64,000 nucleotides of DNA from Clostridiales bacterium (lineage in GTDB: Bacteria > Bacillota > Clostridia > Christensenellales > Pumilibacteraceae): contig JAFLVD010000004.1 in the NCBI GenBank assembly GCA_022508485.1, positions 48,946 through 112,945 of the forward strand. The letters run 5' to 3'. The position numbers were made by a program, and so were the translations under genes. Positions 4,936-51,700 of the stretch are shown here, piece after piece. The notes under the pieces were generated by a model. It had not been told where the DNA came from. It did not search any database and saw only the letters and a list, made by a program, of their open reading frames with translations. Numbering within the stretch: the first letter of the stretch is position 1; every line of letters begins with the position of its first letter.

Positions 4936-5721
4936 TCACATCTCAATTTTACAGTCTTTCGCCGCGTTAAGGATGAGTTTTAGGTTTTCCTCGCTGTTTG
5001 CGACGACGAGGCCCGATTCGCCGTAGCGGTAGGGCGAGCCGTCTATTGCGGCGTACACACAGCCTGCTTCCTTAGCGGCGAGCAGTCCCGGGGAAATGTC
5101 CCATACCTTAGAGTAGTACGTTATATACGCGAGCGCATGACCGCAAACGATTAGCGAAAAATCGATACACGCCGCGCCGAAATGCCGCGTTTTTAAAAAT
5201 GAGGGCTGTAATTTTTCCACGAGCGAAAACTGCTTTTGCATAGGTACGGAAACATCGCCGTAGTAGTCGCTTATAATAAGCATGCCGTCCGCCGCTTTTT
5301 GTGAATGGTCTACGCGCAGGCGCACGCCGTTAAAGTACGCACCGTTGCCGTCGATTGCGGTTAAAACGTCGTCGTGCTTGGGAAAGTACAGCACGGACGC
5401 GCGGCAAACCTCGTCCTCGAAGTACGCGATTTGAATTCCGTAGAGGGTAAGACCTGCGGCAAAGTTGCACGTTCCGTCGATAGGGTCGACGACGTAGCAG
5501 CGGCCCGAAAGACTTCCTCTCGAATAGTTTTCCTCGCTTATAACCGAAGCGGACGGGTCGAACCGTTTAATTTTTTCTACTATAAAATTCTCTATCAGAA
5601 TATCGTTTTCGGTGAGTAGATCGTTTTTCGTTTTGTGGCGCGATACGACAACTTCCTGGGCAAGCAGCTTTTTGCCGGCCTCGCGCACAATGGTCTCAAT
5701 CTGTTTAATCCGTTCAGTCAA
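4936..5721 (-). CDS. Inositol monophosphatase-family phosphatase
   Basis: Metal-dependent phosphatase of the IMPase/FBPase/CysQ superfamily, 261 residues. The metal site is visible: E63/E64 in ISEE, DPIDGT at 79-84 and W207-D208. The family includes inositol-1-phosphatases, 3',5'-bisphosphate nucleotidases (CysQ) and NADP phosphatases; the substrate cannot be read from sequence. The start is a TTG at 5721, supported by GGAGG eight bases upstream inside the last codons of the TIR gene, whose stop it overlaps by 8 bases. Translation is therefore very likely coupled to the TIR-STAND gene, and it is the third gene of that operon. An A/T hairpin after the stop (about 4905-4920) may terminate. Confidence 0.88.
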   Translation of the reverse strand: MTERIKQIETIVREAGKKLLAQEVVVSRHKTKNDLLTENDILIENFIVEKIKRFDPSASVISEENYSRGSLSGRCYVVDPIDGTCNFAAGLTLYGIQIAYFEDEVCRASVLYFPKHDDVLTAIDGNGAYFNGVRLRVDHSQKAADGMLIISDYYGDVSVPMQKQFSLVEKLQPSFLKTRHFGAACIDFSLIVCGHALAYITYYSKVWDISPGLLAAKEAGCVYAAIDGSPYRYGESGLVVANSEENLKLILNAAKDCKIEM

Positions 5722-8563
5722 GGCTTTTACCTCCGTTTTGAATGAGCTTGCCGATATATTCGACCCACTTATCTATGTACTCGTTATCTTCCGTTTCCGA
5801 GCGGTGCTTGTCGCCGGTTAGGGAAGAGATAAGCCCTATGAGTAAATCGCATTCCGCCGTTTCGAGATAGGCGTCGATTGCGTCGTAGGCCTCCGCGCCG
5901 GCGCGCGCGTATTTTAATCCCGACGCCAGCTCGTTTGCGTCGTTTTTACAGTTCATGTACGCGTTAAGCGCGAGGTAGAATTCCACCTGGCCTTTGTCGT
6001 ACGAGCTTACCGCCTCGTTGTTTAAGATGTTTTCGAGGTCCTCTCTTATGCCGGCGGCGTCGCCGCGCATTATGCGTAAAAAGAGCGAGGTGTATTTATA
6101 GCGAACGTAATAGCGGTCGACGCACGAATTGTTTTTGTCGTAAATCTCTTTGCACGACATAAGACATTCCTCCGCCGCCTCGTAGTCCGCCTGCCAGATA
6201 TATGCGTCGGCAAGAACGCGGTAGTCCTCGGCAAGAAACAGGGTGTTGGAAATGCGCTTGTCGGTGTTGGGCATATCCTCAATCCTGCGTTTAAGCGTTT
6301 TTATGGCGGTGCGAATACTCTTGTTGCCGCTCGAAAACTCGAGCATGTGCAGATATATTTTTCCTCTTATGAGGTACGCCATACTCTTTTCGAACTCGGG
6401 ATCGCTGTTTTTCGGATCGATTTCGCTGTCGAGCACCTTTTCCACGTGCTCTATGCTCTTATCGAAGCTTTCCATAGCCTCGTCGAAAAGAACGAGCTTG
6501 CGTTCCGAAAGACCTTTAACGTTGTACAGCTCGGAAAGCAAAAGGTCGTTTCCGTTCAGCTCGGCATGGCTTGATAAAAGCTGCTTCGCCTTTTTAATGG
6601 CGCGGTTAAAATCCTCGACGATGTAATAGTAGAACACCTTGCCGATTTCGCCCTCTATTCCCCAGTCGGAATTGTCGCTTCTTAGTGCGACTGTAAGACC
6701 GATACGTTTAAGAGTAAAGAACATACCCGAGTTGTAAAGAAGCCTGCGGTTTTCAGAGAAAATGCGTATAAACGTAGGGCGAGTGAGAAGCTCTATGCAC
6801 TTTTCAGGTATATGATTGTTAAGCTCTTTGAGTTCCTCCAAATACCTGCCCAGTCCGAAATCGAAGTCGAGTTTTTCTATAACGCAGCGCTGATATTCGT
6901 AGTTGTCGAGGCTTTGCGCCAGCTCTTCGTATAGTTCAAGCTCGATAAGGGTAGCGCCGTAGTAACGCAAAACGTAAAGATTGGAGTAGTTGCCAGCCGA
7001 GTAGTCCTTTTCGATAAAGGTGCGAAGGCGCTTGAATCCGCTCTTTTTACTGATAAAGAAAATCTGCGTAATGTCGTCGAGAGTGAGCCAGTCTATAAGC
7101 GATTTGTGAAGCGGCTCGATAAAGTTGTCGCGCACGGGGAAAAGTCCGCTTATCCGCGCGAGAATGCCTTTAAGCTCGTACTCCGACCACTCGAGGTAGT
7201 CCTCTAAGAATTTAATGTTGGTCGGTTCCTGCGCGATACAGAGAAATTCGAGAAGGGGCTTGACGTCCTCGTAGGTAAGTCCGCTGTCGCGCCCGAAGAT
7301 TCGGGAAAAGCAGTCGTTAAAAAACCCGTAAATGCCGACCGGGAAAAAGTCGATGTCCTCGAGACTGCGGTTGTCCTCTTTAATCTCTTTTGTTATCTCG
7401 CTTGCGTAGAGGAACGAGCCCTCCGACTTTTTTAACAGCGCTTCGATTTTATCCTCGACGGCGTCGGGGAATTGCGATTTATAATACTCGCGCAAATCGT
7501 CCTCGGTCTCGTCCGCGGAGAGAACGCATTCCACCGAAATGGGGTAGATGGTGCGGCGGATTTCCGCCTCGTTGCGGCTCGAAAGCACAAACTTCAACCA
7601 GGGCGGAACGCTGTCCTTCATGCGTGCGAGCACCGAGCACAGCTCGTTTTCGCCGCGCCAGGAACATTCGTCGAGCGCGTCGATTACTATTACGACCGGT
7701 CGATCCATCGTAATGTCCTGCATCGGCTCGACAAGCAAATACTCGAAAATTCGCGCCGCGCTCTTTTCGAAAATAGAGTCGAGGTCGATAAGGCTTAAAA
7801 GCTTTTCCTTGTACGCCGGGATTGCGCTTGCGAGCTGGTAGGCGATAGAGGACAGGATATTTTTGGGATTTACTCTGTCGGAGTTGTTGAATTTACAAAA
7901 GTGCACGGCGCTGACGTATTCCGGATATTTCCAAACGAGCATGCTCGTAAACGCCGTTTTGCCTATTCCCGGCCGTGCGTTTATCCAGAAAAAGCGTTTA
8001 TTCGATTTTAAAAAGCCGTCGAACGCCGCAAACGCGCTTCGTCTGCCGCAAAACGTGCCGTAATACTTAAACGCGTTTTCGCGAGAAAATATCGGCTTTA
8101 AAAGTGTTCTGAGCCGAAGCTCTCTGTCCGAAAACCCGAGCTGAACGTTTCCGTTTAAAATATCGGTGAGGCTTTTGAAAAAGTCGTCGTATTTTGCGGT
8201 AATAAGCTCGCCCGACGGGTCGAGACAATCCATAAGCGAAAGCCGTTGAAACTTGTTTATGCTGAGCGGAATAAGAGAATCGTCGAGCTTGACGGGGATT
8301 ATTACCGCGTTGTTTTCGCCTGCGCGGCAAAGCTCGTTTAAACAGTACCCGTCGCTCGAAGTCGAACGGGCGGAGACGAGAAAAATAAAGTACTTGCAGG
8401 ATAGAATATGCTCGTCGATTATTCTTTCCCAATCGCCCGTTTTAAGATAGTCTACGTCGAGGAAAACCTGAAAACCGGCGCCGCGCAAATCTTCCGCAAA
8501 CTTTTTAACCGCGTCGTCGTGGTGTCCGTGGCCGTAGCTTATAAAGACGTGCTTTGCGTTCAT
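5714..8563 (-). CDS. TIR-NACHT (STAND) NTPase with TPR C-terminus
   Basis: Large sensor-effector protein of 949 residues. Residues 1-135 are a TIR domain (FISYGHG near the N-terminus; probable catalytic glutamate E77 in YCLNEL), the type that hydrolyses or cyclises NAD+ in bacterial immunity. Residues 170-460 are a NACHT-type STAND ATPase with a Walker A variant ARPGIGKT (196-203) and Walker B VIVIDALDEC (291-300). The C-terminal half is helical, with TPR-like repeats from about residue 640, the usual ligand-sensing part. The ATG at 8563 overlaps the MBL stop as ATGA; earlier in-frame starts would lie inside that gene. The architecture matches anti-phage STAND proteins, but the trigger is unknown and no phage data exist. 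Confidence 0.88.
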   Translation of the reverse strand: MNAKHVFISYGHGHHDDAVKKFAEDLRGAGFQVFLDVDYLKTGDWERIIDEHILSCKYFIFLVSARSTSSDGYCLNELCRAGENNAVIIPVKLDDSLIPLSINKFQRLSLMDCLDPSGELITAKYDDFFKSLTDILNGNVQLGFSDRELRLRTLLKPIFSRENAFKYYGTFCGRRSAFAAFDGFLKSNKRFFWINARPGIGKTAFTSMLVWKYPEYVSAVHFCKFNNSDRVNPKNILSSIAYQLASAIPAYKEKLLSLIDLDSIFEKSAARIFEYLLVEPMQDITMDRPVVIVIDALDECSWRGENELCSVLARMKDSVPPWLKFVLSSRNEAEIRRTIYPISVECVLSADETEDDLREYYKSQFPDAVEDKIEALLKKSEGSFLYASEITKEIKEDNRSLEDIDFFPVGIYGFFNDCFSRIFGRDSGLTYEDVKPLLEFLCIAQEPTNIKFLEDYLEWSEYELKGILARISGLFPVRDNFIEPLHKSLIDWLTLDDITQIFFISKKSGFKRLRTFIEKDYSAGNYSNLYVLRYYGATLIELELYEELAQSLDNYEYQRCVIEKLDFDFGLGRYLEELKELNNHIPEKCIELLTRPTFIRIFSENRRLLYNSGMFFTLKRIGLTVALRSDNSDWGIEGEIGKVFYYYIVEDFNRAIKKAKQLLSSHAELNGNDLLLSELYNVKGLSERKLVLFDEAMESFDKSIEHVEKVLDSEIDPKNSDPEFEKSMAYLIRGKIYLHMLEFSSGNKSIRTAIKTLKRRIEDMPNTDKRISNTLFLAEDYRVLADAYIWQADYEAAEECLMSCKEIYDKNNSCVDRYYVRYKYTSLFLRIMRGDAAGIREDLENILNNEAVSSYDKGQVEFYLALNAYMNCKNDANELASGLKYARAGAEAYDAIDAYLETAECDLLIGLISSLTGDKHRSETEDNEYIDKWVEYIGKLIQNGGKSLD

Positions 8564-9237
8564 TCGTTCACCTCGGCAACAAGAAATCCGTCCGCCTCGC
8601 ACTCTTTCATAAACTCGTCGCTGTCAAAGTGCATTAGGCAGACCTTATCCCTTATGGGCGTGGGGAACGCGCGTTTAAGCTCGCTTATATGCGTATGAAT
8701 GGGCGAGGACGAGCAGGTTGCTTCGTGGTAAATGCGGTCTATTTTGCCGCTGTTAAGCTCGTTTACCGCGCGAGGATTTATTTTGCACGTGTCGCCGCTG
8801 TAAAAAAAGGAAAACTCGCCGTAAAAGAAAAATCCGTAGCTGAAAGGTATGTGCTTTTGAGGCACGCAGTCTATTTTATAGCCGGCAAGCTCATTGGGCA
8901 CTTGTTCTATTTCGAACGGAAAGTCGACGCCGGTAAGCTTTAACAGCTGTTTAAGCCGTGCCGCCCTCGGATAGAAGATGTGAAACTCTTTATGTAAAAA
9001 TTTTTCGTTATAGTAAATAAGCGCTTCGAGCGAGCCGATGTGGTCGCTGTGCGTGTGGGTAATAAAGACGCAGATTTTATCCGCCTTTGTCAGTACGCCA
9101 AGCTTTATAAGGCGGTTGCAAATGCTCTCGCCGCAGTCGAAAATAATGAGCGTTTCTTCCGAAAAGAAGTATGCGGCAGTGTTGTACGCGCCGTAGTGAA
9201 AGGCAGACCCGTTCCCGAGAAAAGTCAGTTCGTTCAT
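8560..9237 (-). CDS. MBL-fold metallo-hydrolase paired with the TIR-STAND gene
   Basis: 225-residue metallo-beta-lactamase-fold protein of the RNase Z/phosphodiesterase-like type. Metal ligands are visible: HTHSDH at 61-66, H129, D149 in YSGDT and H203. No signal peptide, so cytoplasmic. The start at 9237 has GGAGG ten bases upstream; an extension to 9294 lacks such a site. It is the first gene of a three-gene operon behind its own promoter and is joined to the TIR-STAND gene by an ATGA overlap. MBL-fold genes accompany some STAND defence systems (type I AVAST, from memory), so a role in processing a nucleotide signal or RNA is a reasonable inference, not shown. Confidence 0.85.
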   Translation of the reverse strand: MNELTFLGNGSAFHYGAYNTAAYFFSEETLIIFDCGESICNRLIKLGVLTKADKICVFITHTHSDHIGSLEALIYYNEKFLHKEFHIFYPRAARLKQLLKLTGVDFPFEIEQVPNELAGYKIDCVPQKHIPFSYGFFFYGEFSFFYSGDTCKINPRAVNELNSGKIDRIYHEATCSSSPIHTHISELKRAFPTPIRDKVCLMHFDSDEFMKECEADGFLVAEVNE

Positions 9238-9296
9238 CAGCGTTTTTCCTCCGTTGTCAGACGTCGTAATCGCGTAGTTATTTTTACGGCGCATCT

Positions 9297-11825: not shown

Positions 11826-13217
11826 ATGTTACTTACAATAACCTACGAAGGAAAAAATACACAGGAACTCGGATTTTTGTTGTATAAAAATCCGAACAAG
11901 ACGCAGCAGTTTGAATTAAGCTACGGAAAAGCGTACGTTTTTTATCCGGAAGTAAGCGATACCCGTACGACCGCGGCGCTTCTTATTGATATCGACCCAA
12001 TCGACCTTGCAAGAGGTAAGCTCGGATCTTCCGTCGGCGGACTTTTCGATTACGTCAACGACAGACCGTACGCTTCGACCTCGTTTTTGAGTACCGCAAT
12101 TTCGCGCGTTTTCGGCACGGCCATGAGCGGAAAGTGCGAAGGCAGACAAGCCCTTGCCGACGCGCCGTTAAAGCTTACGGCGCGCATTTACTCGATTCGG
12201 GACGGCGGCGAGGACGACCTTGCGGCACAGCTTTTCGAACCGCTCGGATATACTGTCCGAACGGAGAGGACCGTGCTTGACGAAAGATTTCCAGAATGGG
12301 GAAGGTCGCCGTACGTTAACCTAACGGTAAGCGGCACGGTAAAGCTGTCCGTGCTGTTAAACCAGCTTTACGTGCTTATTCCCGTATTCGACAGGCAAAA
12401 GCATTACTACATGTCCGAGGACGAAATCCATAAGCTTATCGATCACGGCGAGGGCTGGCTTAGCGCCCACCCTCAAAGAGAGAAAATAGCGCACAGATAT
12501 TTTAACGCGAAAAGAAGCTATGCAAAAAAGGCGCTCGACGTTTTGCTTGCCGACGAGGCGGACGAATCGGACAAGGCGGAAGAGGAAACGGCCGAGGAAA
12601 AGGTTGTCCGTTCGCCGCTAAACGCGTTAAGAATGGAAAGCGTAAAGTCTGCCGTTCTTTTAAGCGGCGCGACAAGCGTAATAGACCTCGGGTGTGGGGA
12701 ATGTCGGCTTACGGCGCTACTTCTTAACGAGCCGCAAATAAAAAAGATTACCGCTTGCGATGTGTCGGTAAGCGTGCTCGAAAAGGGCGCGCAAAGGCTA
12801 AATATCGACCGAATGCCGAAGTACAAGCAGGATAAATTGACGCTTATGCAAGCTTCGCTTACGTATAGGGACAAAAGGTTCGAGGGCTTCGACTGCGCGT
12901 GCGTTATAGAGGTTATTGAGCACATAGAGCCCGCGCGCATACCGGCGTTCGAGCGCTCGGTGTTCGAGTTCGCCGCGCCTCGGACTGTTATTGTTACGAC
13001 GCCTAACAAGGAATATAACACGGTTTACGAGAAGATGCAAGAGGATGCCATGCGTCACGGCGACCACCGTTTCGAGTGGACGAGAGCGGAGTTTAAGAAA
13101 TGGACGGAACACGTTTGCAGTGTGTTTGGATATTCGTGCGAGATAAGCGGAATAGGCGAGAGCGACGAAAGGTACGGAACGCCTACGCAGATGGGGGTGT
13201 TTACAAAAAATGGATAA
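11826..13217 (+). CDS. hen1: Hen1, RNA 3'-terminal ribose 2'-O-methyltransferase
   Basis: Bacterial Hen1, 463 residues. It methylates the 2'-OH at the 3' end of a cleaved RNA during repair, which protects the sealed site from being cut again by the same ribotoxin. The N-terminal half is the bacterial Hen1 domain; the C-terminal methyltransferase has the SAM motif DLGCGE near 286 and the metal-binding residues E362/E365/H366 (EVIEH) and H411/H414 (HGDH). The ATG follows AGAGAG. The gene overlaps pnkp by 8 bases, as in other Pnkp/Hen1 operons. No regulator lies beside it. Confidence 0.95.
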   Translation: MLLTITYEGKNTQELGFLLYKNPNKTQQFELSYGKAYVFYPEVSDTRTTAALLIDIDPIDLARGKLGSSVGGLFDYVNDRPYASTSFLSTAISRVFGTAMSGKCEGRQALADAPLKLTARIYSIRDGGEDDLAAQLFEPLGYTVRTERTVLDERFPEWGRSPYVNLTVSGTVKLSVLLNQLYVLIPVFDRQKHYYMSEDEIHKLIDHGEGWLSAHPQREKIAHRYFNAKRSYAKKALDVLLADEADESDKAEEETAEEKVVRSPLNALRMESVKSAVLLSGATSVIDLGCGECRLTALLLNEPQIKKITACDVSVSVLEKGAQRLNIDRMPKYKQDKLTLMQASLTYRDKRFEGFDCACVIEVIEHIEPARIPAFERSVFEFAAPRTVIVTTPNKEYNTVYEKMQEDAMRHGDHRFEWTRAEFKKWTEHVCSVFGYSCEISGIGESDERYGTPTQMGVFTKNG

Positions 13218-15786
13218 AGATAAATATATATTAGAGCTTCCCGAGTTTTGCCTTGTTGCTTTGGTCGGTTCCACGTCCTCGGGCAAAAGCAGCTTTGCGA
13301 AAAAGCATTTTAAGCCGACGGAGATACTGTCGTCAGACTTTTTCAGAGGAATGGTGTGCGATGACGAAAACGACCAGAGCATTTCCGCCGACGCTTTTTC
13401 GTTGCTTCATTTTGCGGCGGAAAAGCGGCTTAAAAACATGAAGCTTACCGTAATAGACGCTACAAACATTCAGCAAAACGCAAGAAAACAAATAATCGAC
13501 CTTGCAAAAGAACAAAACGTTCACGCGGCGGCGATAGTTTTAAACCTTCCCGAAGCGATTATGCAAGAGCGGAACAAAGCCCGTCCCGACAGGAATTTTC
13601 CCGAACGAGTTATTAAACAGCACTGCCGCGAGGTAAAGCAGAGCATAAAATCTCTTAAAAAAGAAGGGTTTCGTTTCGTATACGTAATCAATTCGCTCGA
13701 GCAGCTTGAGTCCGTAGAGATTGTCCGCACCAAGCTTTGGAATGATAAGCGCGACGAACACGGGCCTTTTGATGTGATAGGCGATATTCACGGCTGCTAC
13801 GACGAGCTTGAACTTTTACTCGGTAAGCTCGGTTACGAAAAGAAAGACGGCGTGTATTCTCATTCGCAAGGCAGAAAAGTCGCCTTTCTCGGCGATTTTT
13901 GCGACAGAGGACCGAGAAACGCCGACGTGCTTCGTCTCGTAATGGACATGGTAAAATCGGGTAATGCCATAGCCGTGCCCGGAAACCACGACGTCAAGCT
14001 ACTGAAATATCTTAAAGGCAAAGATATCGCATTGACTCACGGCATAGATCTTACCATTGCCGAGCTTAACGAAAAAGGGGAAGAGTTTAAAAACGAGGTC
14101 GCTTTATTTATCGACGGGCTCATCAGTCATTACGTTCTGGACGGCGGTAAGCTTGTTATCGCTCACGCCGGACTCAAACAGGAATACATAGGTCGCGGAT
14201 CCGCAAAGGTCAGAGAGTTCTGTCTTTACGGCGAGACGACGGGCGAGCTCGATACCTACGGCCTTCCGTGCAGGCTCGATTGGGCGGCGGACTACCGCGG
14301 CCACGCTACGGTGGTGTACGGGCACATAGCGTCGAGAGAGGTGCGAGCGCAAAACGGAACGTACTGCATAGACACGGGCTGTGTTTTCGGCGGAAAGCTG
14401 ACGGCATACCGCTATCCCGAAAGGACGATCGAAAGCGTTAATGCGCTTAAAGTGTACTGCGAGCCGACTAAGCCGCTCGACGAACAAATTGACGAGAGCA
14501 TGGGCGATATGCTTACCGTTGGTGATTTTAACCGTAAAATGCATATTGCCACCGAGCTGATGCCGTCCATAGACGTTCACGAAAACAACGCCGCGGCGGC
14601 TTTGGAAATAATGTCGCGCTATGCCGCCGATCCGCATTGGCTTATTTACCTTCCGCCTACAATGTCGCCGTGCGAAACGAGTAACCTCGACGAGTATCTC
14701 GAACACCCCGTTCAGGCGTTCGACTACTATGCCAAAAGCGGCATAACGCAGGTGGTCTGCGAAAAGAAACACATGGGCTCGCGCGCCGTGATTGTGCTGT
14801 GCAAAAACGGCGGAGTTGCCAAAAACCGTTTCGGCGTTTCGGACGGAACGACGGGTATAGTTTACACACGAACGGGCAGGCGGTTTTTCGACGACTCGGC
14901 AACCGAACAAGCGGTGCTCGAAAGGCTTAACCGCGTCCTCGACTCGACCGGGTTTTGGACTGATTTCGATACGGATTGGGTTTGCCTGGATACAGAGCTT
15001 ATGCCCTGGTCGGAAAAGGCGATTGCGCTTATCCGCAGTCAGTACGCGCCTACTGGAAACGCGGCAACGGGAAGCATTTCCGTCGCGGTCGAGCTTCTCG
15101 AAAAAACGTGCGGAAGCGGAAAGTCCGTCCCTAATGCAACTGACGGATCTGACAGAAGCGTCGACCCGAGCGATATTTTAAAGCGCTACACCGGCAAGCT
15201 TTCCGACATTGAAAAATACGTTAAGGCATACCGCGAGTATTGCTGGACAGTTAACGGCATAGACGATTACCGCATTGCGCCGTTCCATATTCTTGCGACA
15301 GAGGGTAAGGTTTTCACGTCCGAAAAGCACGTTTGGCACATGGAAACAATAAAAAGGTACATGACCGGCGTCGACCCTATTTTTATGGAAACGCCGTATA
15401 TCTGCGTAAATACGGAGGACGAGGAAAGCGTTAAGGCCGGCGTTGACTGGTGGCTTAACCTAACCGCAAGCGGCGGCGAGGGAATGGTCGTTAAACCCGA
15501 AACGTACACCGCAAAGCAGGGCGCAAAGCTTTTGCAGCCTGCTGTAAAGTGTAGAGGCAGGGAATATCTCAGGATTATTTACGGCGCGGAGTATCTCGAA
15601 AAGCAGCATTTGGACAGGCTGAAGGTGCGCTCGCTTAACCGTAAACGCGCGCTCGCTTTACGGGAATTTTCGCTCGGTGTGGAAGCGCTATGTCGGTTTG
15701 TGAAGGGCGAGCCGCTTTACAGAGTTCACGAATGCGTATTCGGGGTGCTCGCTTTCGAGAGCGAGCCGGTGGACCCGAGACTTTAA
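13210..15786 (+). CDS. pnkp: Pnkp, polynucleotide kinase-phosphatase with ligase-like domain
   Basis: 858-residue three-domain RNA end-healing enzyme. Residues 1-170 are the 5'-kinase (Walker A GSTSSGKS at 20-27); 185-420 the metallophosphatase that removes 2',3'-cyclic phosphate (GDIHG near 191, GDFCDRG at 228, GNHD from 258); 470-858 the ligase-like adenylyltransferase, with the candidate nucleotidyl lysine K520 in KKHMGSR. Together with Hen1 it repairs and marks RNAs cut by ribotoxins, typically tRNAs. The ATG lies inside the end of hen1, so translation is coupled. Length and domain order match the Clostridium thermocellum enzyme family. Confidence 0.95.
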   Translation: MDKDKYILELPEFCLVALVGSTSSGKSSFAKKHFKPTEILSSDFFRGMVCDDENDQSISADAFSLLHFAAEKRLKNMKLTVIDATNIQQNARKQIIDLAKEQNVHAAAIVLNLPEAIMQERNKARPDRNFPERVIKQHCREVKQSIKSLKKEGFRFVYVINSLEQLESVEIVRTKLWNDKRDEHGPFDVIGDIHGCYDELELLLGKLGYEKKDGVYSHSQGRKVAFLGDFCDRGPRNADVLRLVMDMVKSGNAIAVPGNHDVKLLKYLKGKDIALTHGIDLTIAELNEKGEEFKNEVALFIDGLISHYVLDGGKLVIAHAGLKQEYIGRGSAKVREFCLYGETTGELDTYGLPCRLDWAADYRGHATVVYGHIASREVRAQNGTYCIDTGCVFGGKLTAYRYPERTIESVNALKVYCEPTKPLDEQIDESMGDMLTVGDFNRKMHIATELMPSIDVHENNAAAALEIMSRYAADPHWLIYLPPTMSPCETSNLDEYLEHPVQAFDYYAKSGITQVVCEKKHMGSRAVIVLCKNGGVAKNRFGVSDGTTGIVYTRTGRRFFDDSATEQAVLERLNRVLDSTGFWTDFDTDWVCLDTELMPWSEKAIALIRSQYAPTGNAATGSISVAVELLEKTCGSGKSVPNATDGSDRSVDPSDILKRYTGKLSDIEKYVKAYREYCWTVNGIDDYRIAPFHILATEGKVFTSEKHVWHMETIKRYMTGVDPIFMETPYICVNTEDEESVKAGVDWWLNLTASGGEGMVVKPETYTAKQGAKLLQPAVKCRGREYLRIIYGAEYLEKQHLDRLKVRSLNRKRALALREFSLGVEALCRFVKGEPLYRVHECVFGVLAFESEPVDPRL

Positions 15787-18544: not shown

Positions 18545-19471
18545 CTAATCGCCGTATTTGTCGAGCATTAGCTTTGCTTCCTCTTTAAGTCGGTCCTGTA
18601 TTTCCGCGGGGGCGAGAACTTTTACGGACGAGCCGTATGACAAAAGCCGCTTGTAAAGCGAGGAGTTTAGCGGAACCTCTGCGGAAGCCACAAGCTTTGT
18701 GCCGCGTTCCGACACGGCGCCTTCTCCCAGCCAGTCGACAACGCTTTCCGTTACGGTGGGGAAGAATTCGAATTCTATATCGGTGTACACCTCGTTGTAA
18801 TACTCAAGCTCGAGCTTTTCGGTCAGCGATCCTGTGCGCCTTATAAAGCTTTGGCTTGTAAGGCGAATGTCGCTTATTCTTAAAAGCTTAAACAGCCGAA
18901 AATCGCCGCGAAGGTCGCAAAGCGCGTATATATACCACGCGCCGTTTTTAAACACCAAAGTGTGCGGCTCTATTCTTCTGAACGACACGCTGCCGCGCGC
19001 GTCGGTGTATTTTATCTCGCATACCCGACACTGTTCTATCGCTTGGGAAAGCAGCCGTATTCTCGGTTTGAGCTTTTCCGACTGGTTGTAGTCGCAGTCT
19101 ATGTAAAGATCGTCTTGCTTTATCGCAAAGCTGTCCGCTTCCTTCGACTTGTCGAGACAGTCGAGCTTTTCGATTATCGCAGCGTTTACCTTGTCGCCGT
19201 AGGAAGCCGAGGTCTTTTTGAGCGCGTCGCGTATCCGCACCGACTCGGCGTCCGACAGAACGGTTTTATCGAGAGTAAAGTCGTCCGCGATACACACGCC
19301 GCCGTTTACGCCGGGGATTGATTCTATCGGTATGCCGGCGTCGGCGAGGGTAGTTAGGTATCTTGACACGGTGCGCTTACTCACCGAAAAACGCTCGGCA
19401 AGATAGTCGCGAGAAACCTTGCGCTTAGCAAGCAGTATCATAAGTATCGAAAAAATCGTGCTTTGGGGCAT
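18545..19471 (-). CDS. WYL-domain transcriptional regulator
   Basis: 308-residue YafY/DeoR-type regulator: an N-terminal winged helix (about 1-60, SVSKRTVSRYLTTL recognition helix), a WYL ligand-binding domain in the middle (YIYALCDLRGDFRLFKLLRI) and a C-terminal WCX extension. WYL proteins sense nucleic acids or nucleotides in several defence and DNA-damage settings; the target here is unknown. A longer reading from TTG at 19531 is excluded because that TTG is the -35 hexamer of the promoter, so ATG 19471 is used. It is divergent from the M28-like gene and may control it. Confidence 0.88.
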   Translation of the reverse strand: MPQSTIFSILMILLAKRKVSRDYLAERFSVSKRTVSRYLTTLADAGIPIESIPGVNGGVCIADDFTLDKTVLSDAESVRIRDALKKTSASYGDKVNAAIIEKLDCLDKSKEADSFAIKQDDLYIDCDYNQSEKLKPRIRLLSQAIEQCRVCEIKYTDARGSVSFRRIEPHTLVFKNGAWYIYALCDLRGDFRLFKLLRISDIRLTSQSFIRRTGSLTEKLELEYYNEVYTDIEFEFFPTVTESVVDWLGEGAVSERGTKLVASAEVPLNSSLYKRLLSYGSSVKVLAPAEIQDRLKEEAKLMLDKYGD

Positions 19472-19502
19472 AACAAAACAATTTCCGTCGTGTAATGAAA
19501 TA

Positions 19503-19531
19503 AGTATATAATCGCCGAAAAAGTTTGTCAA
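19503..19531 (-). promoter_or_regulatory. WYL regulator promoter
   Basis: Minus strand perfect TTGACA (19526-19531), 17-base spacer, TATACT (19503-19508). It fixes the start of the regulator gene downstream at 19471 with a leader of about 25 bases. Confidence 0.75.
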
Positions 19532-19561
19532 GATAAAATTTTCGAAAACGGCGCAAAATGA

Positions 19562-19590
19562 TTGTAATAATCTTTTAAATATGGTAAAAT
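19562..19590 (+). promoter_or_regulatory. Promoter of the M28-like membrane protein
   Basis: TTGTAA (19562-19567), 17 bases, TAAAAT (19585-19590); a second TATAAT lies a few bases further but lacks a -35. GGAG precedes the ATG at 19628. Confidence 0.5.
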
Positions 19591-19627
19591 ATCCGTATAC
19601 CTATAATTATAGCTTGTTGGAGTTACA

Positions 19628-22450
19628 ATGATTAACGAGGAAGAAAAAATCAACGAGTCGACCGAAGCGGAAGAAACCGCGGAAGAGGTAAAGCCCACGG
19701 CGGAAGAGAAACCGGCAGCGGAAGAGGTAAAGCCCGTTTCGCCGTCTAAACCTCAAAAACAGCCGGCAGGTAAGACTCCGTCCAAAAAGGTCGAGATGAA
19801 CGCGTCGTTCAAGCGGATATACTTTCCGCTCGTTATCGTTTTAATCGTCGTAATGACGGTGTTTTCGGTTATCGACGCGCTTTTCGGTTACAGCCCCAAA
19901 GCGTATGACGACGGTTACTACGCCAACGTGTTCGAGCATGCTAAGGAGATAAGCGTCAACAGAGACAGGTCCGATTTGTCGTCTAACGGCGCGGCGACCG
20001 TTGCCGACTATATAGTGGGCGCGCTCGAGGACGGTTCGTTTACTCTGTCCGAACAGGAAAAGGACGAGGCAGAGCCCGACCTTAAAGAAGAGCAAGAGCT
20101 TTTTATTACCACCGATTGGTCGCGCGTAAGCGGCGCACCCGTTCCCACGGTTACAAGGCTTACCGAAGCGCCGTCGTCCATGCTTCAAGCACGGCATAAC
20201 ATTCCCGTCTACACCGCGGCAAAGGAAATTACCGATATCGTCGCCGCGATTCCGTCCCGTGCGACGAGAATGGGAAAATCGTCGAAATCAGTTATCATTA
20301 CCGTGCGCTACGACAGCCGCGCCGACTCCAACGAGGCCGCGCTCGCCGGCTTTGTGGGCGCCGCGCTCGAAACGCTTGTAGAATATGTAAAATCGGGCGC
20401 AATACCCAAAAACGATATAGTTGTAGTATTTACCGAGGATATGGACTATGCCTACGGCACGTATACGTTTGTAGACGCATTTACCGGCCTCGATAACGTT
20501 GTGTCGCGCGCTAAGGCGGCGGTAAACCTCGAAGCGTACGGCAATGGCGGCACGCTTGCCTTAACCGACGCATCGGGCGCGGGGCTTAGCTACTTTAACG
20601 AATATACCTCCGTTTCCGGCACGGCGTTTAATTCCTCGATCGCCGCCGCGGCAATCCCCGGCGAGATTAAAAACACTTATGCCGTAGACGCGTTTAAGTA
20701 CGCGGAAATACCTGTTGTGCAGGTCGCGCTTTTGGGCAATCTCAATAACGCGCAGTCGCCTGCGGATAACTACGCCGCGCTTTCCGAGTCCGCCGTCCGC
20801 ACGATGAGCGACTTCATTAAAAACTACTTCGAGTTTGCCGGCGAGACTGAAAAAACGTTTGAACTTAACGACAACAAGCTCGTGTTCTTCTCGTACTTCG
20901 ATTGGGGCACGGTCGCTTACGACAATATCGCCGCGTACGTTATTGCGGCAATAACGCTTGTAATCCTTATAGCGGCGATTGCGCTTACCGCAAAGAAAAA
21001 GACGTTCTCGCTGTACCGTATGCTCGTTGCCGTCGGCGTTATGTTCCTCGTGTTTGTCAGCTCTATCGTCGCCATGTTCGCGGCGTACTTCCTCGTAACG
21101 CTTATGCTTACCGGCTTCGGTGTATTGCCTATACACGCGATAGTGCAGGTAAGATACTTTAACGTGGGAATACTCATCGCTTCCATGCTTATCGCTTTTG
21201 CTTCGGCGTTCGGTTTTTCGAGCGTGTACAAAAAGCTGTTTAAGGTTACCTCGTCCGATACCGTAAGAGGCAACGCAATTCTCGTTGCGCTTATCGGCGC
21301 GGTGCTCGGCTTTGCCGCACCTGCGTACTCGTACGCGGTTTCCTGGCTCGGTCTTTTAATGGCCGCGGTTCTGCTTGTAACAGTCTTGTTCAACAAGAAG
21401 TTTAAGGACAAGTTCGGCTACGGTCTCGATAAGCTGTTCCTGTTTGTACTTCCCGTGCTTATCACTCTGCCTTTAACCATGTCGACGGTAACGGCGCTTT
21501 CCGCGTTGTGGCCGCTGTACCTGCTGCCCATCGTTATGCTCATCTTTGTGGCTATGCTCGGCTCGGCTGTGCCGTACCTCGACCGCTCGGTCGTATTCTT
21601 CGACAAGCTTGCCAAAAAGCTTCCCATGCGCACTCGCCGCGTCGAGCGCACCGTAATCGAAAGGGTAGAGGACCGCGCCAAAAAGGGCAAGTTTACTGAA
21701 CAGACCGTGCGCCGCGTGGAAAACGAAAAGGTGCCGGTAAACTACAAAAACTACTTCGGCATTTCGCTCGTAACCGTTTTGGCGGTTGTTATCGCTCTGC
21801 TTTCGGGCGGCTTCGGCGCGACCTTCGGTCAAACCGTAACCGCGCCCAACGCGTACGGCTCTTCCATTTACAACGACTCGCTCGTTTACGAATGGACCAA
21901 GTCGTCGGGCGGCGCCGTATCGCAGCGGCTTATTATCGGCGACCTTATCACCTATAAGTACGCGCGCTACGCGATAGACGACCTTGAATGGGATTCCGAG
22001 CTTGGCATGTATACCAAGAAGGTTAACCAGCCTTCCACCGACATAATCGGCACCGAACCCAACCTTACCAGAGCTTCTACCGGCTACGACATAACCACTT
22101 TCGACGGTCCGCGCTCGGTCGTAACGCTCACCATTCCTTCGGCGCGTGGGGTAACAAAGGCCATAATCACCGACAGCCGAGGCAAGGAGTACGAGTATTT
22201 TTACAGCAAGGTAAATACCATAGTACTGCGCCTGCCGTATGGCACGGACAGATTTAATATCAGGTTCGAAGGCTCTACACCGTCCACTATCCAATACGAG
22301 GAAAGGAAGTCTTTCCTTATCGAAGGCAGCGGAAACAGAGCGCTCGAAAACCTTACCGACCGCACGTATATGGAACAGTATTATAAAGACACCGAGCTTT
22401 GGAACAACCTCCGCGGCGGCATAATTCTTAAAGCCACGTTCTCTGTGTAA
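19628..22450 (+). CDS. Polytopic membrane protein with degenerate M28 peptidase-like domain
   Basis: 940 residues: an acidic, repetitive N-tail (1-58), one membrane helix (about 63-85), an extracytoplasmic domain (90-420) with the M28 aminopeptidase layout, a cluster of about 8 membrane helices (430-660), a cytoplasmic basic stretch, one more helix (near 710-730) and a beta-rich C-terminal domain. This order resembles eukaryotic ERMP1/Fxna. The expected zinc ligands look lost: the HYD signature reads VRYDS (226-229), and the EE pair reads TEDMD near 270. It is probably a pseudo-peptidase or a divergent one. It stands alone between a promoter and a strong terminator. Function unknown. Confidence 0.7.
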   Translation: MINEEEKINESTEAEETAEEVKPTAEEKPAAEEVKPVSPSKPQKQPAGKTPSKKVEMNASFKRIYFPLVIVLIVVMTVFSVIDALFGYSPKAYDDGYYANVFEHAKEISVNRDRSDLSSNGAATVADYIVGALEDGSFTLSEQEKDEAEPDLKEEQELFITTDWSRVSGAPVPTVTRLTEAPSSMLQARHNIPVYTAAKEITDIVAAIPSRATRMGKSSKSVIITVRYDSRADSNEAALAGFVGAALETLVEYVKSGAIPKNDIVVVFTEDMDYAYGTYTFVDAFTGLDNVVSRAKAAVNLEAYGNGGTLALTDASGAGLSYFNEYTSVSGTAFNSSIAAAAIPGEIKNTYAVDAFKYAEIPVVQVALLGNLNNAQSPADNYAALSESAVRTMSDFIKNYFEFAGETEKTFELNDNKLVFFSYFDWGTVAYDNIAAYVIAAITLVILIAAIALTAKKKTFSLYRMLVAVGVMFLVFVSSIVAMFAAYFLVTLMLTGFGVLPIHAIVQVRYFNVGILIASMLIAFASAFGFSSVYKKLFKVTSSDTVRGNAILVALIGAVLGFAAPAYSYAVSWLGLLMAAVLLVTVLFNKKFKDKFGYGLDKLFLFVLPVLITLPLTMSTVTALSALWPLYLLPIVMLIFVAMLGSAVPYLDRSVVFFDKLAKKLPMRTRRVERTVIERVEDRAKKGKFTEQTVRRVENEKVPVNYKNYFGISLVTVLAVVIALLSGGFGATFGQTVTAPNAYGSSIYNDSLVYEWTKSSGGAVSQRLIIGDLITYKYARYAIDDLEWDSELGMYTKKVNQPSTDIIGTEPNLTRASTGYDITTFDGPRSVVTLTIPSARGVTKAIITDSRGKEYEYFYSKVNTIVLRLPYGTDRFNIRFEGSTPSTIQYEERKSFLIEGSGNRALENLTDRTYMEQYYKDTELWNNLRGGIILKATFSV

Positions 22451-22737: not shown

Positions 22738-25152
22738 ATGGCATCAGCACGCAAACCGAAGAATGTTCTCAAGTTTTCGCAGCCCTCTTCCTGGTGGGGA
22801 AGTCAGTGGCGCGAGGCGATTCCGCTCGGTAACGGCGTACTCGGCGCGGCTGTATACGGCGGCGCCGCCGAGGACGTCATTATGCTTACGCACGGCGATC
22901 TGTGGTGGCAGGGCAAGGATTCCGTTTTGCAGGACGTTTCCGACAAGGTTAAAGACGTTCGCAAAAAGATAGACGACGGAGATTTCCTCGGCGCGGAAAA
23001 AATACTTTCCACCGAGCTTATCAAAAAAGGGTACCGTCCGCAGCTGTCCTATCCGTTGCCGCTACTCGATTTTGTCGTTAAGATGCAGCTCGACCATACC
23101 GTTAAAGAATATTCGCGCGAGCTTGATATGGAAAGCGCGGAGGCGTCCGTTACGTTTAAGGACGGCGCGACGCGTTTTACGCGCAATACGTTTGTGTCGC
23201 GCGCTCGCGATATTATCGTTTACGAAATAACCCGTACCGGACAGAAGAATATAAACTGCTTCCTTAAACTGGAAACGCACGACAAGTTTAACGCGCGTAC
23301 CCCGGTTGCCATAAGCGCAATGCCCGAAAACGTAAACGTAAAGAGCGAAAAGTACTGGCTTTACTATTCCGCCCGCTCGTCGTCCGGCTCGGACTTCGGC
23401 GCGGTCGCCCAGGTTAAGTTTATGTCCGGCAATCAAGAGCCGGTAGACGGCGGACTTAAAGTAACCGGCGCGGATAGGATTATCGTTATCATAAAGCCGT
23501 TTATCGAAACGCCGCACGAAAAGGCGTGGAAGGAAGGAAAGGCCGCCATTGCCGACATTAAGCTTCCGTACGACAAGCTTTTAAAAGAGCATCAGACGCT
23601 TCACCAAAAACTGTTCTTTACCGCCGAGCTTGATTTTAACTGCGGCGGCAGGGAAGACTTTGTGGACGATTCGGTTGTCAAAACGGTTAAATCGGGTGAG
23701 ACCGACCCTGCGCTTCTCGAAAAGCTTTGGGCGTACGGCAGATACCTTATGATAACGGGTTCCCGTCCCGACGCGCGCCCCTTTGCGCCTTACGGACTGT
23801 GGTGCGGCGACTATAAAGCGGTGCTCGCGCAGATTAATGCCGCAGGAAGCTTGCAGGCGGCTTACGACATGACGCAGACCGGCAACCTCGGCGAGTTTAC
23901 CGAGAGCGTGTTCAGCCTTTACGAAGGCGTTATGCAGATGCTTAAATACAACGCGTCCCGTCTTTACGGCTGCCGCGGTATATTTGTTCCGTACACCACC
24001 TCGCCCTCGACCGGCTATCCCGGCGAGGTTTACGAGTCGATGATTCACTTTACCGGCGTCGCCGGCTGGCTCGGAAATCTGTTCTACGATTATGCGCTTT
24101 ACACCGACGACCAAAAATTCCTTAAAAACCGCGCTTTGCCGTTTATGAAAGAGGCGGCGACGTTCTACGAGGAGTTCTTTAAGCTCGTTCTCGGCGAGAA
24201 CGCCAAACAGGACTACGAAAACAAGTACTACGAGTCGTCTCCGTCGTACTCGCCGTTCTCCACGCCCGGCAATCTTACAGGGTCGGGTGAGGAACATGCT
24301 ATTGCGAGAAACGCGACCGTCGACTTTGCAATAGCCAGAAACCTTCTCAAAAACCTTATCGAAGGCTCGGAAAGCGCCAATATGAACAAGTCCGAGGTTA
24401 TGAAATGGAAGGATATGCTTAAAAAGCTTCCTCCGTTTAAATACAACCCCGACGGCACGCTAAGCGAGTATATAGACGACAAGTGCACCGACAATCCCGA
24501 ATCACCGTCGCTCGCGCTTTATTATCCGGTCTATCCCGACTACCGCAGCCGCGACAACCTCGAACTGAATAAAGCGCTTATCAACACGGCGCGCAAAAAG
24601 TCGCAGACCGCGAGAAGTAATATGAACGCGGACGCGCTCGCAAGGTATGCGCAGGTGTTTGCAAGGCTTGGCGACGGCGACAACGTTTACGACTGCATTA
24701 ACGCGCTCGTACGCGGCATGGCAATGAACAACCTCATCTTTGCCGACGCCGACTGGCGCGGTATGGGTAGCGGAAAAAAATCGACCTGGGCGCAGCCCGT
24801 GCCGTACGTTAACCTTATAGTAACCGGCGCGATACAAGAATCGCTCGTTCAGTCCACGCCCGACACGATATCGCTTCTTCCTGCACTTTGCGCAGGAATG
24901 GGCAAGGGTATGCTTACCGGCTTCCAGACTCGCGCAAAGGTGGAAGTTTCCTCGCTCGAGTGGGACGTTTCGCGCGGCACGCTTGTCGTTAAGCTTAAAG
25001 CAAAGCGCGCAACAAAGATCGACGTTCAGTTCCCCAAAACGGCAAAAGCGCCCAAAAAGGTGGACGCCGAAAAGTTCGACGACACGCGAGGCCTGCTTAT
25101 GGGGCTTAAACTTGCCGCCAACAAGCCGGTTACGGTCGAAGTTAAATTCTGA
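22738..25152 (+). CDS. Glycoside hydrolase family 95 (alpha-L-fucosidase type)
   Basis: 804 residues with the GH95 layout: N-terminal beta-sandwich opening with WREAIPLGNGVLGAAVYGG (from about residue 24) and LWWQG, a helical linker, an (alpha/alpha)6 barrel at about 300-690 and a C-terminal beta domain. GH95 members cleave alpha-1,2-L-fucose or alpha-L-galactose; the exact specificity cannot be read. No signal peptide, so substrates must be imported. Some barrel motifs are altered relative to fucosidases I recall, so family is firmer than activity. It is a single-gene unit with its own promoter; a weak G+C-rich hairpin follows near 25187-25217. The 243 bases to the NUDIX gene contain only terminator-like hairpins. 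Confidence 0.8.
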   Translation: MASARKPKNVLKFSQPSSWWGSQWREAIPLGNGVLGAAVYGGAAEDVIMLTHGDLWWQGKDSVLQDVSDKVKDVRKKIDDGDFLGAEKILSTELIKKGYRPQLSYPLPLLDFVVKMQLDHTVKEYSRELDMESAEASVTFKDGATRFTRNTFVSRARDIIVYEITRTGQKNINCFLKLETHDKFNARTPVAISAMPENVNVKSEKYWLYYSARSSSGSDFGAVAQVKFMSGNQEPVDGGLKVTGADRIIVIIKPFIETPHEKAWKEGKAAIADIKLPYDKLLKEHQTLHQKLFFTAELDFNCGGREDFVDDSVVKTVKSGETDPALLEKLWAYGRYLMITGSRPDARPFAPYGLWCGDYKAVLAQINAAGSLQAAYDMTQTGNLGEFTESVFSLYEGVMQMLKYNASRLYGCRGIFVPYTTSPSTGYPGEVYESMIHFTGVAGWLGNLFYDYALYTDDQKFLKNRALPFMKEAATFYEEFFKLVLGENAKQDYENKYYESSPSYSPFSTPGNLTGSGEEHAIARNATVDFAIARNLLKNLIEGSESANMNKSEVMKWKDMLKKLPPFKYNPDGTLSEYIDDKCTDNPESPSLALYYPVYPDYRSRDNLELNKALINTARKKSQTARSNMNADALARYAQVFARLGDGDNVYDCINALVRGMAMNNLIFADADWRGMGSGKKSTWAQPVPYVNLIVTGAIQESLVQSTPDTISLLPALCAGMGKGMLTGFQTRAKVEVSSLEWDVSRGTLVVKLKAKRATKIDVQFPKTAKAPKKVDAEKFDDTRGLLMGLKLAANKPVTVEVKF

Positions 25153-48772: not shown

Positions 48773-51700
48773 ATGCCAATATCGGATGAGATTATCGAAC
48801 TTGCACCGATAAAAAAATCGAAACCAAAAATGATTATTGTGTTCGTCTTGATGGGCCTGTTTTTTGCGGCCGCGGCGGCGTTTTTGGTTTTGTATCTACT
48901 TAAACCGTCTGCAACGGTAAGCACCGGCGCTGTTTTGAGCGTCGAGGAAGCGCCCGTAAACACGTCCGCTGTTCAAGGCGCGAAGGCTTTGTTTAAAAAG
49001 ACGGAAGGCGACGATTCCGAGTACTTTGCTACGGTCGGCGTCGAGTATACCGTCGCCGTCAAGGTAAGCGTAGAGGGCGAAGCCAACAACCAGGTTTCCT
49101 GGATTGTCGAGCCGCACGGCGCGCTTGACGAAAAGGGCGAAGGCTCGTACGACTACGGCGTAACCACGGTAGAGGACGGTCGGCAGTCCGTGCATTGGTA
49201 TAAGTTTACCGTCTTACCCGAGTTTGCCGGTCAGCAGATAACGATTACCGCACGCTCGCATTCCGATTCGGCGCAGCGTTCCGTTATTAAATTCAACGCG
49301 GTGAATCAGGGCGCGGAGACCGTTGAGTTTGTTTCGGTCGAGCGTAACGAGGCAGGCGCGTCAACCACCAATATAACCACCGAAAAGATAACTCTTCCGT
49401 TTTACGACAGCAAGAGCAACTCGTATCTTCTCGTTTACCGTCAGCTCGGCGCGTCCAACGGTACCGAGCATAACGACATAGCGCACATAAGGCTGCCCGA
49501 CGGCACGTACACCGATAAGGTAGAGGTTACTTCGAGCAACCCTGCCACCATTACCGCACGCGTTGTCGAGACGGCGCAAAGGCCGACCATAGAGATTAAC
49601 CTTCTTAAAACAACACCCGACGCCGATCATCCGGTAACCATCACTTTAAAGGCCAACGTAAATAATGCCAGCGCCGACGAAGTTACCCAAACTCTTAAAA
49701 TCGTTTCTACGAGCAGTAAAGAGCTTGGATACATAGACGACATTCGCATAATAAAAGAGGAGACGAGCACGACGTATTTCAGCGAGCTTAGGGCTTTGCC
49801 TGCGTCCATTCCCTCGATAACTCTTCCTTACGGCACGACGTATAACGAAATTTTAAAGCACGTCGTTCTTTCGCCGTGGACTCTTCAGTACGACGCGGCC
49901 GGCGATAAGCTTATTGAAAACTGGAAGGATAATATCGAAGTTACGTCCTCCAACAACAATCTCGTAACGACGAGCTCTGCCAACAGAGTAGTATCGATTA
50001 CCGCGCATTCCACTCTTTCCACCGACTGCACGCTTACATTCCGCGACAAGTCGGCAAACAGCACGGGCGCGACTCGCCAGCTTAAAGTAAACGTCGTAGC
50101 GCAACACCGCGCCAACGGTATCGCGTCCGAGGTAAAAATAGGTACGCAAACCTATAACGACAATCAGGTAAGCAGAAACGAGCTGCCTATATCGCAGGGC
50201 TTGAGCGCGAACGTAACATTTACGTATACCGTTACCGCGCCGGCGAACACCTCGAAGGAGACGCTCGGTAAATACATTTCCTCCGCTTACAGACTGTTCT
50301 ACAACAAGTCGGAGATGACCGTACGACTTGGAAGCACAGTGATAGAACCGTACAATCCCAACCCCGCGGCAGGGCAAAAGACCAACGAACAAGATTTGTC
50401 GGGAGACATCACGTTTAAGGCCGGTAGCTCGGCGACGACGTTTGTCGGCGAGATTACGTTTGAGATTACAATAAACGAGGAAGCCGAAAACGGCATAGTA
50501 TCCTTTTCGTTTATGAAAATCGGCGCGGAAATTCCCAATGCCGACGCGATAAATACCGTTGACGCCACCATAGAAAAGACGGTTAACTTTGCGGTTACAA
50601 ACATAGCCAGAAGGGTTATGCTTAAAGACGAAATCCCCGGCGTGCAAAGGTCGGCTTTGGATATTGTTACCGAGCGCTTCACATTGCCCGGCAAAATAGA
50701 AGAGGTAGAAAGCGTTTTGGACGCCAACGGAATTACTTGGAGGCTTACGTTCAACGTATATATCCAGTACGGCACTTACGACGCTACTCTTTGGTTTAAG
50801 CCGCAGGATTTGATTTACGCCGACGGACCGGCGACTGCTTCCGCAGCAACCTTTACACCTAATAACCAGGGCTCGCTTTCGCTGACCGCTCTGCAAGGCA
50901 CTGCGGAAAGAGAGCTTAAATTTAACAACTACGCACCTAACTTTACCGGCAACGACGCTTCGGCTAAATTCTCTTACACCAACACGAATTCGGAAAAAAT
51001 CGCCGAAGTTACTATTAACTATATTGTTATTAACGGTATCAGTGCGATAACCGTCGAAAATTCCAACGTAAAGGAAGTAACTTACAGCGGAAACGGCGGC
51101 GGAAACGGCAATGCCAACTTCGCGGTGGATAAAGTAAGATACACCCACATTTATTCAACCTCGCAAAACCAGGGTGCGCCCGAAGATCCGTACGGCGTAA
51201 GAATAAAATACGGCTCGGACACCGCCGGCATTTACTTTGAGGAAACGGAAGACGAGGACACGGGCGACGTAATATTTAAGTACGTTTCCGAAGCGGCCGC
51301 CGCAGACGATGACGACGATGACGACGATGTGCCCACTTCGATAAACGTATTCCGTTACAGCAACGGCTATATCTATCTGCTTCAAGACCTTTTCTCGCTC
51401 GGTTATAATTACGGCATAGATTTAAGCCGGATTACGATAGAATACACCGCCAATCCGGCGCATTATCCGCTCGAAAACCTTAAAGCAAGCCGCATTTACA
51501 ACTTCGTAAGACTTGCCGACGATATCGGCGTTTATACGGACAGGACCTATTCCGACAGCTCTAAGGTAGAAAAGGACATATCGGGTAATTACTTTATCGA
51601 GGTAAACCACAACAGCTCGCTCAGCATTTACACTTCGCCTATCATAAACGTAAACGGCGTAGGCCCCATTGTGTACAGGCACCCGAGCGACGTTCCCGTA

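Follow-up and report, generated by a model that had tools for sequence, protein, structure and literature searches.

A probable M28 pseudo-peptidase carried on a nine-helix membrane protein in Pumilibacteraceae-like Clostridia

The locus and its distribution

The window, the whole 64,000-nucleotide stretch of DNA analyzed here, encodes on its forward strand an M28-type polytopic membrane protein of 940 amino acids in a reading frame that is open over its length (19628-22450). Pfam places Peptidase_M28 (PF04389) at residues 217-399 (E 6.4e-05, 23.2 bits), just over the curated cut-off, and an NCBIfam search with the 940-residue protein assigned no family. Relatives along the whole protein are encoded in all 20 genomes of the genus and in 72 of 74 genomes of the family, a Pumilibacteraceae-like family of the Clostridia, and in only 5 of 77 other sampled genomes of the order. 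When 341 genomes from across the class Clostridia were sampled, only the window's own genome gave a match over the full length. Of the remaining matches in that sample, nearly all cover the M28 part alone, with one (G365, E 4.7e-42) extending slightly beyond it.

A divergent promoter region of 96 bp (19532-19627) precedes the gene. As aligned by eye, the genus has a conserved sigma-A-type promoter upstream of the pseudo-M28 gene, with TTGTAA-17-TAAAAT and a TG that extends the -10, together with a GGAG ribosome site. An imperfect inverted repeat in the same 96 bp, GATTGTAATAATC, overlaps the -35 conserved in this divergent promoter. On the other side of this region, the reverse strand codes for an HTH/WYL/WCX regulator by Pfam (18545-19531), for which the inverted repeat is a possible operator. 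A homolog of the regulator is found near the M28 membrane gene in 31 of 39 loci, usually divergent and adjacent. Downstream on the forward strand is a GH95 glycoside hydrolase (22738-25152, Pfam) with a homolog in 33 of the 39 loci; by eye, the protein lacks an obvious N-terminal signal. Farther downstream of the M28 membrane gene are dapB, dapA and asd; upstream, other genera have polA, coaE and a gene for a lytic transglycosylase. These conserved neighbors may reflect nothing more than the shared gene order of a housekeeping region (dapA/dapB/asd, polA, coaE, lytic transglycosylase) rather than a functional link.

The window also holds the genes of a bacterial RNA repair pair, Hen1 (PF12623) and then Pnkp with its kinase, phosphatase and ligase (11826-15786). 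A 962-residue protein with a TIR domain and NPHP3_N, a STAND-type NTPase, is encoded on the reverse strand (5714-9294). Its gene adjoins one for a protein of the metallo-beta-lactamase fold, whose match to the anti-Pycsar protein Apyc1 is sub-threshold, and the region looks like a defense locus. A very large open reading frame of 3457 amino acids is found at 48773-59146; its first 1076 residues match no Pfam family at E<=0.001.

Architecture and the lost zinc site

The original prediction had described a layout of the ERMP1 type, and this was borne out. An AlphaFold2 model of the window protein, built with 39 homologs (pLDDT 87.3, pTM 0.84), orders the parts as TM1, the M28 domain, eight further helices and a C-terminal beta domain. 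Hydropathy analysis gives nine hydrophobic segments. The protein starts with a cytosolic tail rich in acidic residues and Lys (residues 1-56, 19628-19795) that is variable, absent from other genera in the alignment, and only 45% identical even to that of the closest, 82%-identical relative. TM1 (residues 58-85, 19799-19882) is followed by the degenerate extracytoplasmic M28 domain (residues about 206-415, 20243-20872), placed by Pfam, alignment, model and Foldseek, and then by the TM2-TM8 bundle (residues 433-646, 20924-21565). A long beta-hairpin is predicted between TM8 and TM9, in a Lys/Arg-rich loop (ERTVIERVEDRAKKGKFTE..., residues 651-706, 21578-21745). TM9 (residues 708-728, 21749-21811) leads to the beta-rich C-terminal domain of the model (residues about 751-940, 21878-22447). 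The loop preceding TM9 contains 17 Lys/Arg, so that by the positive-inside rule it would be cytosolic with the M28 and C-terminal domains outside. Foldseek searches against the PDB returned M28 aminopeptidases, with the Streptomyces griseus aminopeptidase (SGAP) as the best match (E 8.7e-08). Together with the PF04389 match, this identifies the domain as having the M28 alpha/beta aminopeptidase fold. A zinc-intact relative was modeled as well; its architecture is identical and its Foldseek matches to the same enzymes are somewhat better.

Relatives with an intact zinc site carry the motifs AHYDS, GAxDN, TDAEEEG, NFDxLG and YHT. At the same alignment columns, the window protein has R227, a second motif without its DN and hence without the bridging Asp, D271/M272, E302 and Q376. 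That a His is replaced at VRYDS and a Glu at TEDMD had been noticed originally, and both replacements are upheld by the alignment. The first zinc His of AHYDS is R227 in the window, at the start of R227-Y-D-S-R-A-D233 (20306-20326), and F268-T-E-D-M-D-Y274 (20429-20449) is the remnant of the catalytic EE motif where intact relatives have TDAEEE. Beyond these two, the bridging Asp is lost, the fourth zinc ligand has changed from Asp to E302 (20531-20533; Asp in most intact members), and the last zinc His is replaced by Q376 (20753-20755). The domain does not carry the ligand set of a catalytic M28 enzyme (HxD, D, EE, D/E and H). Zinc ligands at other positions, the finding named beforehand as counting against a lost site, were looked for and none was found, residues 206-415 containing 0 His and 0 Cys. 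Because the domain has neither residue, the zinc site has not moved elsewhere within it. Across the genus, the M28 domain has no conserved His or Cys column either, and a relocated site is excluded on these sequence grounds.

The genome encodes a second protein with an M28 fold, a 619-residue lipoprotein with one transmembrane segment and a long low-complexity tail (G000:C14:16687-17229; loci L120 and L183). Its motifs are also degenerate (AYYDN, GALSNG, FGSSAV). It is zinc-dead in all 20 genus genomes, with intact versions in two distant relatives from the order (L163, L165). A third PF04389 match in the genome (locus L122) was set aside as its sequence reads as an M20-type peptidase instead. 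By their motifs, both M28 proteins of the window's genome are zinc-dead.

Zinc-intact and zinc-dead relatives

A check proposed with the original prediction, whether relatives keep the zinc ligands, gave a divided answer: some do, and those of the window's genus do not. The two His and the second Glu are missing in the alignment from all 20 genus members. The full set (HxD, D, EE, D/E, H) is kept in 8 of 74 full-length proteins, which come from genera g5, g15 and g17, a paralog in g4 and one relative from the order; two of the eight have Glu at the fourth ligand. The replacements vary by dead lineage. The window's genus has R..Q, while g18 has N-E-E-H, g8 has H-G-R-Y and g2 has R-x-G-Q. Within the genus, R227, D229, R231 and D233 are invariant across the 20 members, as is E270. 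WYL and GH95 genes are found alike beside zinc-dead and zinc-intact members in the 39 loci.

On a tree built from the parts of the protein other than M28, three changes between the zinc-live and zinc-dead states are required on well-supported branches. An AU test did not reject a single zinc-dead clade (p 0.117). As regain of a two-zinc site is unlikely, repeated loss is preferred, and that the site was likely lost more than once is the better reading of the tree, if not a proven one. The chances seem evenly balanced that this bacterial family with an ERMP1 layout has repeatedly passed from zinc peptidase to pseudo-peptidase, live and dead forms occupying one chromosomal position in related genera, with a second M28 protein, the lipoprotein, gone the same way. 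If true, the family would offer a natural series in which to study a protease turning into a scaffold or receptor.

Compared to the 82%-identical closest relative, dN/dS over the whole gene is 0.175; by region, it is 0.091 for TM2-8, 0.097 for the cytosolic loop and 0.118 for the M28 domain. Over three pairs the range is 0.07-0.18. With dN/dS at about 0.12, purifying selection acts on the zinc-dead M28 domain, which shows only that the domain matters. Conservation peaks in the cytosolic loop rather than in the M28 pocket: across the 74 full-length proteins, mean column identity is highest in the loop, at 0.61, and is 0.43 in M28. Those proteins were collected by a whole-protein search whose seed was independent of the loop. 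A separate contig scan was seeded with the hairpin motif, and hairpin conservation was therefore judged from the whole-protein set only. Anaerocaecibacter muris and two Pumilibacter species are among the named relatives from that scan; the NCBI taxonomy has Anaerocaecibacter in the Pumilibacteraceae, Clostridia.

Possible roles and comparison with known M28 proteins

The window protein is almost certainly a pseudo-peptidase. Its M28 domain is predicted to keep the aminopeptidase fold, but the zinc site is gone, and with it peptide hydrolysis. A role as membrane scaffold or receptor is an even call by itself, and a pseudo-peptidase serving as a non-catalytic scaffold or receptor in the membrane is, by a modest measure, our favored overall explanation. 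Outside the cell, a peptide, an exported protein or a cell-wall component would dock on a surface made up of the M28 fold and the C-terminal beta domain. Inside, contacts would be made mainly through the helix bundle together with the basic, highly conserved beta-hairpin on the cytosolic side. As zinc-intact and zinc-dead members are alike in layout, hairpin and neighbors, catalysis seems to be an ancestral activity dispensable for the core role.

The main rivals are a ligand sensor and a chaperone resembling eukaryotic nicalin, and both can be viewed as special cases of the scaffold or receptor reading. A sensor or chaperone role, as suggested originally, would be plausible. As a sensor, the protein would bind a peptide or amino-acid-like ligand outside in a rebuilt pocket formed by R227, D229, R231, D233 and E270, and the hairpin would signal, perhaps to the WYL regulator. 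The invariance of these charges within the genus, the frequent WYL neighbors and a basic hairpin facing the cytosol are all consistent with sensing. However, the other dead lineages differ at these positions, so they share no common rebuilt pocket, and a Pfam search found no recognizable signaling domain; we consider a sensor possible but doubtful. A chaperone of the translocon type, acting on membrane or exported proteins much as nicalin does in the multipass translocon, appears more improbable still. Nicalin has an M28-type fold without activity. The role has precedent at the ribosome-bound translocon, where nicalin is in a complex with TMEM147 and NOMO (PMC7505659), and the parts of the window protein would fit it: M28 outside, a bundle of helices in the membrane and a basic hairpin in the cytosol. 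Translocon factors tend to be widespread, though, whereas this protein is confined to one bacterial family and a few relatives, and no secretion genes are among the conserved neighbors scanned at the 39 loci.

Judging from the residues kept in the genus, R227, D229, R231, D233 and E270 might form a pocket capable of metal-independent chemistry. An enzyme still active through an unrecognized metal site or a metal-free mechanism could draw on the acidic E270, D271, E302 and D380, which in the alignment are still near the old site. With the bridging Asp, both His and the second Glu gone and the domain free of His and Cys, such an enzyme is very improbable. The loss of catalytic residues in several lineages could instead be taken for a decaying, functionless gene. 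The frame is open and stop-free in all 20 genus genomes and the promoter is conserved, and decay, to which we give almost no credence, was rejected as contradicted by the dN/dS values.

In its layout, the closest parallel to the scaffold or receptor candidate is ERMP1 (Fxna, Felix-ina). The M28 domain of ERMP1 is placed after TM1, and the window model has the same order of parts. ERMP1 is a nine-transmembrane M28 protein, its zinc-binding His, Asp and Glu are present in the human and Schizosaccharomyces pombe proteins, the PDB contains no Fxna structure and its function is described as still unknown (PMC11120530). ERMP1 retains the HxD and EE ligands, whereas the window protein has lost them. 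No match to the Pfam ERMP1-TM family (PF22249) was found at E<=1 in 25 members, the window protein and 24 relatives, nor anywhere in the window's genome. We therefore speak of an ERMP1-like layout and not of an ERMP1 homolog. Of the resemblance originally proposed, the layout and the degenerate M28 domain stand; for the membrane part, the sequences indicate a common layout and no more.

SGAP, the AM-1 aminopeptidase 2ek8 and Bacillus subtilis YwaD share the M28 fold and sequence profile of the window domain. They are soluble zinc enzymes, whereas the window domain is without ligands and sits on a nine-helix protein. GPAA1/Gaa1, a subunit of GPI transamidase, combines a lumenal M28 domain with membrane regions (PMC7522609), like the window protein. 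GPAA1 was modeled as zinc-binding (PMC7522609) while the window M28 is zinc-dead, and it is absent among the 50 Foldseek PDB matches listed. The literature searched contained nothing on bacterial M28 pseudoenzymes. One nine-helix protein occurs here both live and dead, in the same gene neighborhood of related, partly cultured gut bacteria (Pumilibacter, Anaerocaecibacter), and the role of such a protein apart from cutting could be approached by swapping the two versions.

Nicalin, nicastrin and the transferrin receptor are non-catalytic M28-fold membrane proteins, and such dead M28 proteins are important in eukaryotes. The transferrin receptor is among the Foldseek PDB matches listed. Like these three, the window protein has a zinc-less M28 fold that is membrane anchored and extracytoplasmic, as an M28 pseudo-peptidase should by alignment, model and hydropathy. 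They are single-pass proteins, whereas the window protein has nine helices and a cytosolic hairpin.
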